The position numbers and the translations under genes were made by a program. A stretch of DNA of 63,069 nucleotides from contig JAPPLM010000047.1 of the NCBI GenBank assembly GCA_028874195.1, positions 31,810-94,878 of the forward strand. The letters are read 5' to 3'. The notes below the pieces were generated by a model. It ran no database searches and had not been told where the DNA came from. It worked only from the letters and a program-made list of their open reading frames with translations. Origin of the DNA: Chloroflexota bacterium (GTDB taxonomy: Bacteria; Chloroflexota; UBA11872; VXOZ01). Positions 20,216 through 63,069 of this stretch are shown here, in pieces (positions within the stretch are counted from its first letter, which is position 1; each line of letters starts with the position of its first letter).

Positions 20216-20837
20216 ACAGCATCTCCCTGTTCTCTTCGACAGTTCGTTTCCTGTCCTTCCACATTCGCGGTCATGCTCTTGTGTGACTTGCCAAGCCGTC
20301 AGACCGGAAGTCATGCATTTGGAGTCCGCACTAGAGACTATACCGCATTTGTTTCGCAGGCTCCCGTGCGGATGGGAATAATATCAGGGGTGGTGAAATC
20401 CTAGAATTGTTGATTGGCTTCAATTGCTTCATGGGTTTGAAGCAATGGCACCCTGAGATCGAATATTGCACCTGTAAGTGTTGAGTAATTCGTTGACAGA
20501 ATCTCCTGACCACTAGACAGTGTTGACTGTCTATGTCATTCCGAGCGGAGCGAGGAATCTAGGGTGCTGCGCCATTAGACTACGTGCTGCATGGCCCTAG
20601 ATTCCTCACTCCGCTGCGCTGCGTTCGGAATGACATGTGTAATGGCATATTCGACGCTAGAGTCACCACTCTCTCTACCAAAACTGTCAACGAATTACCT
20701 GACATCTACAGCACCTAATCAAAGCGACACGGTGCGCCAGTGTGTAACCACGCAGGCAACGAGGCGAGTATGGTACCTTGAACACTGAAGCGCACGATGC
20801 ACTGCGTCAGTACACAAAGTTGGTAAGGTAGACGGGG
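20216..20837. other. Intergenic region of 622 bases with a MITE-like element
   Basis: No gene is recognisable. Besides the 214-bp inverted-repeat element at 20485-20698 it contains a perfect 8-bp hairpin, ATTGCTTC (20423-20430) with GAAGCAAT (20439-20446). The divergent flanking genes (SDR and TlpA-like) must have their promoters here. Confidence 0.5.
20485..20698. mobile_element. MITE-like element with 15-bp terminal inverted repeats
   Basis: GTAATTCGTTGACAG at 20485-20499 is the exact reverse complement of CTGTCAACGAATTAC at 20684-20698. Inside are a perfect hairpin, AGACAGT-GTTG-ACTGTCT (20515-20532), and a larger inverted pair around ATGTCATTCCGAGCGGAGCG (20533-20564) and CTGCGTTCGGAATGACAT (right arm 20595-20636). 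There is no coding capacity and no clear target-site duplication (flanks TTGA and CTGA). A non-autonomous transposable element or a composite of extragenic palindromes fits. Confidence 0.55.
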
Positions 20838-56363: not shown

Positions 56364-58277
56364 ATGATAATTGGCATTGCCAAGGGCCCTGGGGACACAC
56401 CGAACGAATACACCTTTGTCACGCCCGATACGGCGCGGCGTGTAAAGACAAGCGAATTCGTCTATTACGAGGCGGAGGTTGACGGCATCCAGCGCCAGAT
56501 ATTAGGGCGTGTCATCCGGCGGATACCGTTGCGCCTCTATCCGGATTCATTTCTCGCGCACCCGGAGGTCGACCCGGCGCAGATGGCGGCATTGGTTGGC
56601 TACGCCGACACCAGCGCACCTTCAGGAGATAGTAATGGGCCAGGCATCGGCTCAGCGGAACTCTTTGAGATTCACGTCAGTATCATGGGCTATCACGATG
56701 CGCAGTTGAGCGCCTTCGTCAATCCACGCATTCCGCCTCGCATTGGCTGGAAGATATACCTTGCGCCCGACGCGGCCCTGGCGGAAGTGCTCAACCGTGT
56801 CGCCTTTGATTGGAACATGGGTGAAGCCAATCCGGGCGGGGCGTTCGTCGGTTCGCTGCTCTCGCGCCCGGCCTTTAGTCCGCAAGCGGACCAACCCGAC
56901 GGTGTGCCTGTAGTATTGGACGTCCGTTCCATTACGGCGACTCATATGGCAATCATCGCCGGCACCGGCGCGGGCAAGAGCTACCTGGCGTCCGTTCTGA
57001 TCGAAGAGATGATGAAGCCCATCAACCGCGCCAGCATTCTGGTGATTGACCCACACGGCGAGTACGACACCCTCGAAGAGATACGAAATGCCCGCGAGTT
57101 TAGTGCCAACGGCAGCTATAAGGCGGAGGTGAAGACCGTCCCCCAGGATCAGGTAAAGATTCGTGTCTCCGATTTGACGTTCTACGACATGCGCTTTCTG
57201 CTCGGCGCGCAATTCGGTCTTTCCGGTCCTATGGAGTATGTTCTGCGATTGGCGCTAGATCGAGTGGAAGGCGAGCGCAAGGACAAGACCGCCTGGACGA
57301 CGAACGATCTCTACGCTGCCTTGGCCTACATGCAGGATGGGGAGGACGAGACAGAATCCGGCCAGGTCCGTCATTCCCGCGCAAGCTCGCCCCCGCAGGA
57401 GGCGCGGAATCCATCTTCAGGCGACGGCGACCTTGACTGGCTCGACGACGTTGGTAAAGACGCTGGCAAAGACGCCGGCAGCAAGGAACCTCAGGGCACA
57501 CGCGGCAAGCCGGATGTGCAAATGCGCGGCAGCGCGCGGGCGCTCGACTGGCGCTTGAGAAGCCTCTTCGCAGAGTCACCGAATTTCGACAACATTGAGA
57601 CCATCAACCTCCACGATGTCTTCCGCCCTGGCCTGTGCTCCGTGCTCCAACTCAACGAAATCGACCGCCGCCAGCAGCAAGTGATCGTGGCCGTGCTCCT
57701 GCGCATGGTCTGGAAAGCGCGCATGAACGCCGCAAAAGGCATTGGCTCCCCCCAAGACCGCCTTGACTACCCGGTTTTCATCCTGTTGGAAGAGGCCCAT
57801 CACTTCGCGCCCGCCAATGAAGACGTGGTGACGACGAATATCCTCAAGACTATCTTGGCGGAGGGCCGCAAGTTTGGCGTGGGCGTGGGCCTCATCAGTC
57901 AGCGGCCAGGCAAACTCGATTCCGATGTGCTTTCCCAATGCATGACGCAGTTCCTCCTGCGCATCGTCAACGAATACGACCAGAGCAGTGTGGCGGCTGC
58001 GGTGGAGAGTGCGAGCCATGATCTCCTGGCGGAACTGCCGGCGCTCTCGAAGGGCCAGGCAATCGTGGCCGGCGCCGCCGTCAATACGCCGCTCTCAATT
58101 CGTGTCCGACAACGCATCACACGCCACGGCGGTATCGAACCTGACGCTCCTGGGGAGTGGGCAAAGTATTTTTCGGATGAAGCGCGGCAACGCCGCGAGG
58201 TTGACGACTCAGGACTGCCGGAAGGTCCGCCGCGAGGCCGCAGCAACCTCTTCTACAAGAGCCGCGACCGCCGGTAG
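56364..58277 (+). CDS. herA: HerA-type DNA translocase ATPase with an inserted palindromic repeat
   Basis: A 637-residue HerA/FtsK-type ATPase. An N-terminal HAS-barrel is followed by Walker A GTGAGKS (residues 200-206), VIDPHGEYD and, in the C-terminal half, Walker B FILLEEAHHFAP and the FGVGVGLISQRP region. It would drive end resection together with NurA. Residues about 335-395 form an insert rich in Ser, Pro, Asp and Gly; its first part comes from a palindromic DNA repeat (57368-57415), and GKDAGKDAG follows. The insert splits the ATPase core between NDLYAALAYM and ALDWRLRSLF. The ATG at 56364 has no strong ribosome site. Confidence 0.9.
   Translation: MIIGIAKGPGDTPNEYTFVTPDTARRVKTSEFVYYEAEVDGIQRQILGRVIRRIPLRLYPDSFLAHPEVDPAQMAALVGYADTSAPSGDSNGPGIGSAELFEIHVSIMGYHDAQLSAFVNPRIPPRIGWKIYLAPDAALAEVLNRVAFDWNMGEANPGGAFVGSLLSRPAFSPQADQPDGVPVVLDVRSITATHMAIIAGTGAGKSYLASVLIEEMMKPINRASILVIDPHGEYDTLEEIRNAREFSANGSYKAEVKTVPQDQVKIRVSDLTFYDMRFLLGAQFGLSGPMEYVLRLALDRVEGERKDKTAWTTNDLYAALAYMQDGEDETESGQVRHSRASSPPQEARNPSSGDGDLDWLDDVGKDAGKDAGSKEPQGTRGKPDVQMRGSARALDWRLRSLFAESPNFDNIETINLHDVFRPGLCSVLQLNEIDRRQQQVIVAVLLRMVWKARMNAAKGIGSPQDRLDYPVFILLEEAHHFAPANEDVVTTNILKTILAEGRKFGVGVGLISQRPGKLDSDVLSQCMTQFLLRIVNEYDQSSVAAAVESASHDLLAELPALSKGQAIVAGAAVNTPLSIRVRQRITRHGGIEPDAPGEWAKYFSDEARQRREVDDSGLPEGPPRGRSNLFYKSRDRR
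57368..57415. repeat. Palindromic repeat inside herA, in frame
   Basis: CCGTCATTCCCGCGCAAGCT begins it and GGCGCGGAATCCATC ends it, with inverted ATTCC(C)GCGC / GCGCGGAAT arms. It belongs to the widespread CGTCATTCCCGCG-type extragenic repeat and is related to the TGTCATTCCGAGCG copies near 20533, 20595-20636 and 58347. Here it is translated without disrupting the frame, encoding VRHSRASSPPQEARNPS-like residues. Confidence 0.7.
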
Positions 58278-58346
58278 ATAGAGTTGAAAATACCATGCCT
58301 CTTGTATGCTCTGCTTGATTGTCATTAGAATGTCTTTCTCAAATTG

Positions 58347-58401
58347 CCATTCCGAGCGCAAGCGAGGAATCTGAAACGTAGCGCGGGGGCTTGTCCCCCG
58401 C
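58347..58401. repeat. Pair of extragenic repeats: CCATTCCGAGCG and CGCGGGGGCTTGTCCCCCGC (copy 2)
   Basis: CCATTCCGAGCGCAAGCGAGGAATC at 58347-58371 resembles the arms of the 20485 element; the GC-rich hairpin TAGCGCGGGGGCTTGTCCCCCGC at 58379-58401 matches the 19228 and 59663 copies. The pair lies between herA and the next Gfo/Idh gene. Confidence 0.7.
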
Positions 58402-58482
58402 TTCTTGGCGAGAGGCGCAGACGCGCTCCCAAACAATATCGCCTAGCACGTAGTCCCATATCGCCAGCAAGAGGACGGACAC

Positions 58483-59538
58483 ATGCCTTTCAACTATGAA
58501 TACGCGCGCCACATACGCGCCGGATTTATCGGCTGTGGCAAGCACGCATTCCAGAGTATTCTGCCCAGCTTCCAATATGCGCCGGTAGAGTTGGTGGCGG
58601 TTTGCGATCTGATAGAAGAACGCGCCCGGTTCTGCGCGCGGCAGTTTGGGGCGTTGCGCTGGTACACCGACTACGCCGCCATGCTGGCACAGGAAGAATT
58701 GGACGCGGTCTTTGTGGTGCTCAATCACGACTCTCAGGGGCGCCCCCAGTATGCGCCGGTGGCAATCGACGTACTACGGGCGGGCTTTCACGTCTGGATT
58801 GAAAAGCCGCCCGCCTCTACGCTCGCGGAAATCGAAGAGATGCAGGTCGCGCGAGACCGGGCGCAGCGGTTCGCTCAGGTCGGCTTCAAGAAACCCTTCT
58901 ATCCCGCCATTCAACACGCGAAGAAACTGATGGCCCAACCGGAATTCGGGCAACCGACCTCCGCTTACGTCCATTACGCCGTGAATCTGCCGCCAGTCGA
59001 GGGACGCCCCCACAGCCGCGAGATGATGCGCTTTCTCCAGATCGGCTGCCATCCACTCTCGATCCTCCAATACCTGCTCGGTTCGCCCAAGACACTTTAT
59101 TTTGCCGATGAGGCGCGGCAGGGCAGTTCGCTGGGCGTCTTCACGTTCGCAAACGGCAGTATTGGCTGCCTCCATCAGGCCGCGGGCAAAGGGGAAAACG
59201 CGCCCTGGGACCGCGTGGAGGTGAACGGCGAAGGCGCTTCATTAATCGTTGAGAACGGCATCGACCTCACCCACTTCCCGCCGGGTGCGCCACGCTCGCG
59301 GGAGTCCTTTGTGAGTGACGATGCCACTGCGCCGCGCCGCTGGCTGCCCGACTTCTCCCACGGTCGTCTCGCCAACAAGGGCCTGTTCTTGCTGGGCTAC
59401 GCCCCGGAAATCATCGCCTTTGCCGAGAGCGTGCTCAACAACACCCCACCAACCACGGCTACCTTGGAAGACGCCCACGACGTGATTCGCATGTACCTCG
59501 GCTACACCCAGACCGCGGGACAGGTCATCGTCCTTTAG
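58483..59538 (+). CDS. Gfo/Idh/MocA-family oxidoreductase
   Basis: A 351-residue oxidoreductase with GFIGCGKHAFQSILPSF at the start, VWIEKPPASTLAE with the catalytic Lys near residue 107, and a C-terminal domain with RFLQIGCHPLSILQYL and its His. The N-terminal glycine motif has GxGxH. A GAGGA sequence seven to eleven bases before the ATG serves as ribosome site. The substrate is unknown. It is unrelated in function to the repair genes before it. Confidence 0.9.
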   Translation: MPFNYEYARHIRAGFIGCGKHAFQSILPSFQYAPVELVAVCDLIEERARFCARQFGALRWYTDYAAMLAQEELDAVFVVLNHDSQGRPQYAPVAIDVLRAGFHVWIEKPPASTLAEIEEMQVARDRAQRFAQVGFKKPFYPAIQHAKKLMAQPEFGQPTSAYVHYAVNLPPVEGRPHSREMMRFLQIGCHPLSILQYLLGSPKTLYFADEARQGSSLGVFTFANGSIGCLHQAAGKGENAPWDRVEVNGEGASLIVENGIDLTHFPPGAPRSRESFVSDDATAPRRWLPDFSHGRLANKGLFLLGYAPEIIAFAESVLNNTPPTTATLEDAHDVIRMYLGYTQTAGQVIVL

Positions 59539-60985: not shown

Positions 60986-63069
60986 ATGAGAATTGCTGAC
61001 ATTGAATTCCCCCTTGACTTGTGGGATGACCTGAGACAAGGGAAACTCGTGCTGTTTGCTGGGGCCGGCGTTTCTATGGGAAGGCCAGCTGGACTACCGG
61101 ATTTCAAAGACCTGGCGCGAGAGATTGCAAGAGGCACTGGTGAGCGTCGAAAGCCCAAGGAGCCAGAGGACTACTTCTTGGGGAGGTTAGAGGATCAAAG
61201 AGGTACAAAGGTTCATGAACGTGCCGCTCGTGTTCTCTCCAGAAGTGGCGTGAAACCAACTGATTTGCACATAGACATTCTGCGCCTCTTTAAGAGAAAT
61301 TACAAGGTTCGTTTGGTCACCACGAACTTTGATGAGTTGTTCGAGCGAGCCATAGATACAGAGGATGAGCTCGATGTAAGGCCCGAAGTATTCAGAGCTC
61401 CTGCGTTGCCCCTCGGTCGCGACTTCAGCGGCATCGTCCACTTGCATGGTACGGTGAGTCAGCCCCAAAGCATGGTGCTTACAGACACGGACTTCGGCCG
61501 GGCATACTTGACTGAAGGATGGGCACGACAATTCCTTGTAGACCTTTTTCGCACATTTCCGGTGCTTTTTGTGGGATACAGCCACAACGAAACCATCATG
61601 AGTTATCTTGCACGCTCTCTACCGAGAAGCGATGAGACAAAGCGATATGCCTTAACCGACTCCAAGAGCGCCGAACAGATGCGTTGGCAAACGCTTGGGA
61701 TTGAGACGATTCCCTATCCTAAATCCCGTAACCACCGGGCCATATGTAAGGGCGTCAAAGGCTTAGCATGCTATACCCGCCGCAGCATACTGGAATGGAA
61801 ATGGGAGATTGAAGCAATTGCAAAGAATCTCCCACCCTCTGACAAAGAATCTGCGGACATCATTGAAGAGTCTTTGAGAACCCTAGCCAAGGCTCGTTTC
61901 TTCGCGAATGCTGCAACAGATCCAGCGTGGATTGATTGGCTTGACGAACGCAAACATCTAGACGCAGCTTTTGGTCACGGCGATTTGAGCGATATCCAAG
62001 GAGTTCTGTCTTGGTGGCTTGCCCACCATTTTGTCTTTTGTGCTGCCGACAAGCTGTTTCTCTTGATTGGTAAGCACGATGGTCGCATACACCCGAATCT
62101 CTGGTGGAAAATTGGTCACGAGATCACAAGTAGTGGGACCGAAATTAATAGGGAATTGCTATCAAAATGGGTATCCGTTCTGGCCTCTGACATTCCGACA
62201 ATTGATAATACAGACCAATTCATCCTGTTAGATCTAGGCATGCAATGTTCTCAATATAGGCTGTTTGATCGCGTCCTACAGTTTTTCGACGCAATGACGG
62301 CAAGCCGTCTTATCGCGGAGCCGGGCTTCCCATTGGATGACCAAGAACCTCCAATTGATGCGGAAATAAAAATGGTCGGAGAACCCCATGTTGTATGGGG
62401 TTTGTGGAGAGATTGCCTAAAGCCTAACCTAAGTGAGGTGGCTAAACCTCTCCTTGAGCTAGTAGTTAGACGTTTGGAACAAAGGCACCGTTCGCTTAAC
62501 CCGTGGGGGCAAAGCGAGAACTGGGAGCGGCCAGCAATCGGAAGTCATGAGCAGAATAGGTCCACCGGCCCATCCACCGTCCTAGTTGATGCCGCGCGCG
62601 ATATCCTCGAATGGCTCGCAGAGACTCAGCCGGAAGCAGTAGCTAGCTGGTGCAAACAGCTTGCAGTGTCAGATGTACCATTGTTGCAGCGCATTGCTAT
62701 ACACGTTGTAACCGCCCAAAAGGAACTGAATTCAGATGAGAAAATCGATTGGCTTCTGACTAACCTTGACATACACGACTCAAGAATTCACTACGAGGTC
62801 TTTGCTCTAGCGGGGCAAGCCTATCCCAGTTTAGACATGAGTGTCAAGAAGGTTCTAGTTGCAAGAATTAGAGAGTACCGGTGGCAGAGCAAAGAACGCT
62901 CGGAGTTGACACCTAAACAGCTTGAAGCCTGGAATGAACTCAACTGGTTTCAATGGCTCCATGAAAAGGACCCGAGTTGCCCTTTAGCTAAGCAAGCCCT
63001 AGATCAAGCGTCAAACCTAAACAGCTTGAAGCCTGGAATGAACTCAACTGGTTTCAATGGCTCCATGAA
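60986..63069 (+). CDS. SIR2-domain protein with large helical C-terminus, truncated by the window end
   Basis: Open for 694 codons without stop to the window edge, AAGGA ending five bases before the ATG at 60986. The SIR2-like NAD-binding motifs are GAGVSMG (residues 26-32) with GLPDF (36-40), TTNFDELFE (112-120), and HLHGT (152-156) with the catalytic-type His; VGYSHNE at 196-202 ends the core. The rest, from about 250 on, is helix-rich (WWKIGHEIT, WLAETQPEAVASWCKQL) and resembles the C-terminal part of SIR2 proteins of DUF4020 type. Such genes belong to antiphage NAD-depletion systems. GC content is visibly lower than in neighbours, suggesting transfer. The last 100 bases may be assembly-damaged. 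Confidence 0.82.
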   Translation, partial: MRIADIEFPLDLWDDLRQGKLVLFAGAGVSMGRPAGLPDFKDLAREIARGTGERRKPKEPEDYFLGRLEDQRGTKVHERAARVLSRSGVKPTDLHIDILRLFKRNYKVRLVTTNFDELFERAIDTEDELDVRPEVFRAPALPLGRDFSGIVHLHGTVSQPQSMVLTDTDFGRAYLTEGWARQFLVDLFRTFPVLFVGYSHNETIMSYLARSLPRSDETKRYALTDSKSAEQMRWQTLGIETIPYPKSRNHRAICKGVKGLACYTRRSILEWKWEIEAIAKNLPPSDKESADIIEESLRTLAKARFFANAATDPAWIDWLDERKHLDAAFGHGDLSDIQGVLSWWLAHHFVFCAADKLFLLIGKHDGRIHPNLWWKIGHEITSSGTEINRELLSKWVSVLASDIPTIDNTDQFILLDLGMQCSQYRLFDRVLQFFDAMTASRLIAEPGFPLDDQEPPIDAEIKMVGEPHVVWGLWRDCLKPNLSEVAKPLLELVVRRLEQRHRSLNPWGQSENWERPAIGSHEQNRSTGPSTVLVDAARDILEWLAETQPEAVASWCKQLAVSDVPLLQRIAIHVVTAQKELNSDEKIDWLLTNLDIHDSRIHYEVFALAGQAYPSLDMSVKKVLVARIREYRWQSKERSELTPKQLEAWNELNWFQWLHEKDPSCPLAKQALDQASNLNSLKPGMNSTGFNGSM
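62911..63069. repeat. Exact 55-bp direct repeat at 62911-62965 and 63015-63069
   Basis: Both copies begin ACCTAAACAGCTTGAAGCCT and end GGCTCCATGAA, identical over 55 bases, with different bases before them. The second ends exactly at the window end. The offset of 104 is not a multiple of three, so the second copy reads in another frame of the SIR2 gene. Confidence 0.95.

Follow-up and report, generated by a model that had tools for sequence, protein, structure and literature searches.

In-frame palindromes in bacterial genes have reportedly been described from Ogata et al. 2000 onwards, for the most part as collections of individual cases. The CGTC-1 REPs are high-copy sequences composed of a CGTC or TGTC tag, an 8-bp stem starting with AT, a 4-nt loop and a CCA tail (Di Nocera et al. 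2013, PMC3733652). The available portions of that study equate them with dRS3 of Neisseria and RPE-6 of R. conorii, describe intragenic copies, some of them in frame and many in repair genes including uvrA, and report that no association with a transposase was found. The same portions list CGTC repeats for five phyla, Chloroflexi not among them (GTAG repeats are listed there), put the largest REP-encoded protein regions at 43 to 82 residues and give 70-300 bp as the size of MITEs. RPE-1, RPE-4 and RPE-6 are palindromes that are translated in frame within conserved proteins, according to the accessible parts of PMC3733652, PMC10969869 and PMC2229807. A literature search by title and abstract returned no report of intragenic REPs in Chloroflexi, and the peptides RHSRESGNP, MDSRFRGND, VIPAKAGI and WIPAFAGM, together with two shorter ones, had no match in the literature searched.

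We analysed a window of 63,069 nt (G000:C20:31810-94878), the whole stretch of DNA studied here, from the 3.5-Mb genome G000 (81 contigs), and compared it with the five congeners G001 to G005. Those of the genomes that carry titles are draft MAGs with up to 490 contigs, and the members of the genus are presumably sponge symbionts, judging from isolate names. A first-pass annotation had proposed that a palindromic repeat of an extragenic type lies in frame inside herA, and the sequence bears this out: the element at 57369-57413 falls within the open frame 56364-58277 (+), which reads through it without a break to give a HerA of 637 aa. The relevant features of the window are:

20534-20635, no strand assigned: extragenic head-to-head pair of related elements with a GAGCG core, forming a strong combined hairpin (z -7.4)
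56364-58277, + strand: gene of the HerA/DUF87 ATPase that hosts the element (637 aa; DUF87 E 1.8e-32; orthologues in 5/5 congeners)
57369-57413, + strand: long-form CGTC-tagged palindromic element, HerA residues 336-350, read as RHSRASSPPQEARNP
57372-57512, + strand: HerA linker residues 337-383 with model pLDDT <50, between the better-predicted helices 313-339 and 390-404
57387-57407, + strand: region holding the 18 nt (6 codons) by which the long form exceeds the short one of G002, G001 and G004; the precise position within it is ambiguous
58348-58371, + strand: extragenic single GAGCG-core element with a CATTCC arm and without a GTC tag, directly downstream of herA

At its end the window also carries an exact direct repeat of ~54 bp (62912-62965 and 63016-63069, 104 bp apart).

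The HerA feature is real and, as far as its sequence tells, in frame and in principle translated. The element is 42 nt long from GTC to ATC, has the tag CGTC and the tail CCA and shows the skeleton CGTC-ATTCC...GGAAT-CCA; with its edge bases it extends over 57368-57415. It encodes HerA residues R336-S351, RHSRASSPPQEARNPS, leaving the reading frame intact, and the peptide spanning it includes RHSRASSPPQEARNPSS. The structure model of HerA has a low confidence (mean pLDDT 48.3) and was used for the position of the linker only. The GKDAGKDAG that had been pointed out behind the element does start ~12 residues after it and is unrelated to it; it is a short duplication that no genome but G000 shows, DAEKDAGG standing at this place in the nearest congener. 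Single-strand folding of the window copy gives no better result than that of shuffles (z -0.67) because its inner arm has decayed; the copy of G005 is likewise no better (z -0.94), and the short form in G004 (L035) reaches z -2.83. Rfam gave no match within window positions 57000-58500.

The pattern GTCATTCC-N5-35-GGAATC had 253 matches in G000 and none with a reversed-pattern control, therefore the element is not a product of chance. The six genomes of the genus contain 253, 95, 273, 362, 126 and 102 copies. Among 113 distinct copies that were read for family features, the tag was CGTC in 78 and TGTC in 33, and the tail was CCA in 75 and CTA in 29. Copies of 24 nt accounted for 58 of the 113; 56 of these pair in 8 of 8 positions, via five stem types, 36 have the loop GAAA and 44 begin with ATTCCC. 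The siblings of the HerA copy belong to a long form of 42-43 nt with 11 copies in G000. Two of these 11 share the variant GCAGGAGG, namely the HerA copy (window 57369-57413) and a copy in the gene of a DUF2298/PMT_2 membrane protein (L145 2720-2761), and its absence from the other 34 long-form places of the genus hints at a conversion between the two genes. The kinship of the HerA copy with those at 20533-20636 and 58347, as put forward in the first-pass annotation, extends to the outer arms, which are shared, but not to the core, which is of the GAGCG type and belongs to another subfamily.

HerA is present in all five congeners, and in five of the six genus genomes the element occupies the identical place of the linker in the identical phase. 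The short form is read as RHSRESGNQS in G002, RPSRESGNPS in G001 and RHSRESGNPS in G004, the long form as RHSRASSPPQ(G/E)ARNPS in G000 and G005, and the linker of G003 is without an element. The short and long forms differ by 18 nt in frame, a net gain of 6 residues; the ~16 residues that the element was first thought to add are thus what it encodes, not what HerA gains over relatives with a short element. The linker comprises 62 codons in G000, 58 in G005, 48 in G002 and 50 each in G001, G004 and G003, and no clean empty site was found among the six genomes, the element-less linker of G003 equalling those of G001 and G004 in length. A linker of equal length without the repeat had been named as evidence against the initial reading and exists in G003, but the in-frame element stands all the same, since five genomes carry it and its long and short forms differ by exactly 18 nt. 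In HerA proteins from other families the linker is much shorter and lacks the element (12 relatives shown; G033 unreadable in one frame). Draft assemblies of up to 490 contigs and the repetitive nature of the elements would make it conceivable that a repeat was misjoined into herA; however, six separate assemblies have HerA frames that run uninterrupted through linkers of differing form, and five other genes compared among congeners show the same pattern, which makes such an artefact extremely improbable.

Ten of the surveyed copies (113 of the 253 matches) sit inside six G000 genes with coding sequence on both sides, so that further in-frame copies accompany the one in HerA. HerA, the DUF2298/PMT_2 gene, a gene labelled FadJ (3-hydroxyacyl-CoA dehydrogenase/enoyl-CoA hydratase) and that of a ferredoxin-type membrane protein have one each, a DNA methylase-like gene has two and UvrA four; the methylase and ferredoxin-type names were given from recognised motifs, neither protein having a Pfam match. 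Orthologues were compared among the congeners for each of the six genes. The UvrA site, flanked by the end of the match to the UvrB-interaction domain and by ELLFSEQFAC, is filled in 6/6 genus genomes with inserts of 58-340 residues that contain 2-11 RHS motifs and 1-3 MDSR motifs, and it lacks the insert in 20/20 parsed outgroup loci (of 24), element-rich genera included. The clean contrast between empty and filled sites is found in the methylase, where G002 and G004 are empty and G001, G003 and G000 are filled. In the DUF2298 gene the long form is present in G000 and G004 and lacking in three others; by eye only, the G001 gene possibly has a decayed short element. A further long-form copy, found among the long copies of G004, lies in the gene of an APH-family kinase (L228). 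New here are Chloroflexota as a phylum and six more genes with in-frame inserts beyond HerA.

Some of these proteins contain additional repeats. UvrA has another variable in-frame repeat type (PSTGSGRT...) at a second site, which precedes the second of its ATP-binding halves, in G000 (L102:1-2697:-) and also in G001, G002, G004 and G005. The insert of the ferredoxin-type protein (L133:624-2483:+; congeners L199 and L200) also holds the repeat HPDPLPQGRG / HPGPLPQGRG, and two repeat families thus occupy one loop of this membrane protein. Besides its element, the G004 kinase (L228:1026-2195:-) contains additional inserted sequence, flanked by HGDYSPKN and LLLDFE. The candidates L004 (ParB-like), L019/L020, L021 and L062 were dropped as in-gene cases, their elements lying only upstream of the likely start, and L135 (a glycosyltransferase) was left as ambiguous, with the element 46 residues from the start of the frame.

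The A of ATTCC falls on codon position 2 in 65 of 67 detected element-like sites (32 ORFs from six genes in up to six genomes), the two off-phase sites being chance matches outside the inserts; the count includes no ORF of four genes from G005, the assembly of which is 69% complete, and array copies and orthologues within it are non-independent, but all six genes agree nevertheless. This phase reads RHSRESGNPS in one direction (GRAVY -2.36) and MDSRFRGND in the other (-1.78). Among the open frames that go unused are two hydrophobic ones, VIPAKAGIH (+0.86) and RWIPAFAGMT (+0.47), and a basic one, SFPRKRESI (-1.37); one of the six element frames contains a stop. Other frames do occur at the ends of ORFs, as in the VIPAKAGI tail of TrpC (L024) and in L114, L118, L122, L128 and L140; these cases and L145 at C81:37006 are outside the phase count. 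The TrpC-like gene (L024, G000:C14:53828) runs at its end into an element, read in the VIPAKAGI frame, and terminates 6 residues further on.

A similar selectivity appears in the length of the long form, which is 42 nt in 6/6 genic copies and in 8/26 others, with 43 or 44 nt in the remainder (p 0.003, Fisher test; 32 of the 36 long-form places of the genus, without L230, G005:C471, G004:C47 and G004:C50). The genic copies are those of HerA and DUF2298 in two genomes each, the ferredoxin-type protein and the G004 kinase; because two orthologue pairs are among them, they stand for four genes and not for six events. Compared with the 24-nt form, an element of 43 nt would cause a frameshift. Single phase and multiple-of-three lengths point to a constraint that would act on the protein.

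In most of the genes, though not clearly in all, the element DNA itself is younger than the DNA around it or has been homogenised more strongly. When herA of G000 is compared with that of G005, a single difference falls in the 53 nt of the element stretch, against 103 at 286 four-fold sites outside the linker. Over the six genes, four-fold sites at the tag, loop and tail positions, i.e. those unused by the detection rule for short elements, differ in 20/177 cases, against 192/520 in the linker at most 60 nt away, where the genome pairs are non-independent and only recognisable elements are counted. The contrast is seen in HerA (0/30 vs 35/72 nearby), UvrA (7/88 vs 73/225), the methylase (0/9 vs 13/44) and the ferredoxin-type protein (5/20 vs 17/22), and it is weak in FadJ (7/24 vs 50/138) and the DUF2298 gene (1/6 vs 4/19). 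The low divergence relative to the flanks therefore suggests a renewal in place, probably by exchange with, or re-insertion from, other copies.

An old, vertically inherited insertion with a peptide that functions in HerA and is kept by selection on the protein, without any renewal, would account for the motif RHSR(E/A)S..N(P/Q)S, which is retained with small changes in 5/6 genomes while the remaining linker changes. Selection on the protein does not explain why the synonymous positions of the HerA element are unchanged as well, and the sole difference between the G000 and G005 elements alters an amino acid; moreover, G003 does without the element in HerA and the identical peptide occurs in unrelated proteins. 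We consider this explanation unlikely. The main alternative to renewal for the low divergence is a constraint at the DNA level, in which the element would be kept in the gene for a DNA or RNA role (a hairpin with an effect on transcription, on mRNA decay or on the structure of the DNA) and its translation would be incidental. Both the conservation of the elements at the DNA level and the complete pairing of 56 of the 58 24-mers through five different stem types are in its favour, yet the HerA copies of the window and of G005 fold no better than shuffles, and the strict phase and multiple-of-three lengths point to the protein instead, leaving this role with a slightly higher but still small probability.

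A mobilisation by RAYT (Y1 transposase), as for the GTAG REPs, was considered, and PF01797 was sought in G000 and in 61 genomes. In favour of this route, G000 has two Y1-family genes, but neither of the two loci (3.2-3.3 kb each) contains an element. Y1/RAYT genes were found in 20/61 genomes; PF01797 is absent in 11 of the 16 genomes with at least 50 element copies, including G003, which has the most copies in the genus (362), and 0-2 copies occur in the five genomes that have the strongest Y1 hits. Element load does not track RAYT transposases, as judged by PF01797 only, and we rejected RAYT as the mover, a role that we regard as quite improbable. One Y1-family frame of G000 (L073:1396-2082 (-)) opens on a peptide that resembles a repeat, GNAGVPPA..., and the frame opposite and overlapping it reads SAGVSPAGYH, which may represent another REP type.

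We infer with good confidence that the feature is an expanded CGTC-1-type REP, a relative of dRS3 and RPE-6, in a disordered and poorly conserved linker of HerA, where it would be read as a hydrophilic spacer; its peptide is most likely tolerated and not needed. The elements would spread by a route without RAYT linkage, and a filter would retain only inserts with a length that is a multiple of three and in the phase that gives R-H-S-R-E-S-G-N-P-S or M-D-S-R-F-R-G-N-D, not the hydrophobic frames. Occupied sites might then be refreshed from other copies, through recombination or re-insertion, and in the lineage of G000 and G005 a short element would have been exchanged for a long one. The same insertion pattern recurs in several conserved proteins and in one phase, therefore mobile DNA appears to write protein loops. 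More tentatively, the loops of HerA, UvrA, the DNA methylase, FadJ, the DUF2298 mannosyltransferase-like protein and the ferredoxin-type protein could be lasting addresses for translated REPs, which are rewritten by exchange, multiplied in tandem and filtered for one phase and multiple-of-three lengths, yielding fast-changing disordered segments.

What makes the feature interesting is the comparative pattern: the protein sites are fixed, the phase is always one, one form appears to be exchanged for another and divergence is low. Six related genomes in which a given protein site may hold a short, a long or an arrayed element, or none, permit a direct test between old, tolerated insertions and turnover, and the same comparison bears on what the protein filter is. 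If true, renewal would be relevant to the persistence of CGTC REPs, for which no transposase is known, and to the rapid length change of disordered loops in repair proteins such as UvrA. Caution is also advised with annotated proteins, in which peptides like RHSRESGNPS or MDSRFRGND may be derived from repeats.

Intragenic, in-frame CGTC-1 REPs, including those in uvrA, are already known; the single phase, the genic length of 42 nt and the low divergence of the elements are new. The family as a whole resembles the CGTC-1 REPs, the short form having their tag, stem, loop and tail, and no dedicated transposase was found here either (PF01797 only). The window copy has the CGTC tag and the CCA tail; it is expanded to 42 nt and misses the 8-bp stem and 4-nt loop, and is therefore called a variant. 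Further differences are the UvrA inserts of up to 340 residues, compared with 43 to 82 in PMC3733652, and the use of one codon phase and the exchange of forms in place, neither of which is described in the available portions of that paper. Like the RPEs, the elements lie in frame within conserved proteins, and the comparison with Rickettsia palindromic elements made in the first-pass annotation is supported beyond a general likeness, because the short form fits the CGTC-1 REPs; the relation to RPE-6 follows from their being equated in the available part of PMC3733652, not from Rickettsia sequences. The better known RPEs differ, as far as the accessible sources describe them, in measuring 105-146 bp and having a peptide of their own, compared with 24-43 nt and frequent arrays here. 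The likeness to dRS3 consists in the start ATTCCC of 44/58 short copies, which is the left arm of ATTCCCN8GGGAAT as given in the accessible parts of the Neisseria papers; the phylum is another one, and the window copy, at >20 bp, falls outside this consensus. GTAG REPs with their RAYTs differ from the family in the tag, which is CGTC/TGTC here, and in the RAYT linkage, which is missing. As to MITEs, which have terminal inverted repeats and a target-site duplication, a palindrome is present in the elements, no clear duplication was read in the empty and filled methylase sites, and at 24-43 nt the elements are smaller than the 70-300 bp given for that class.
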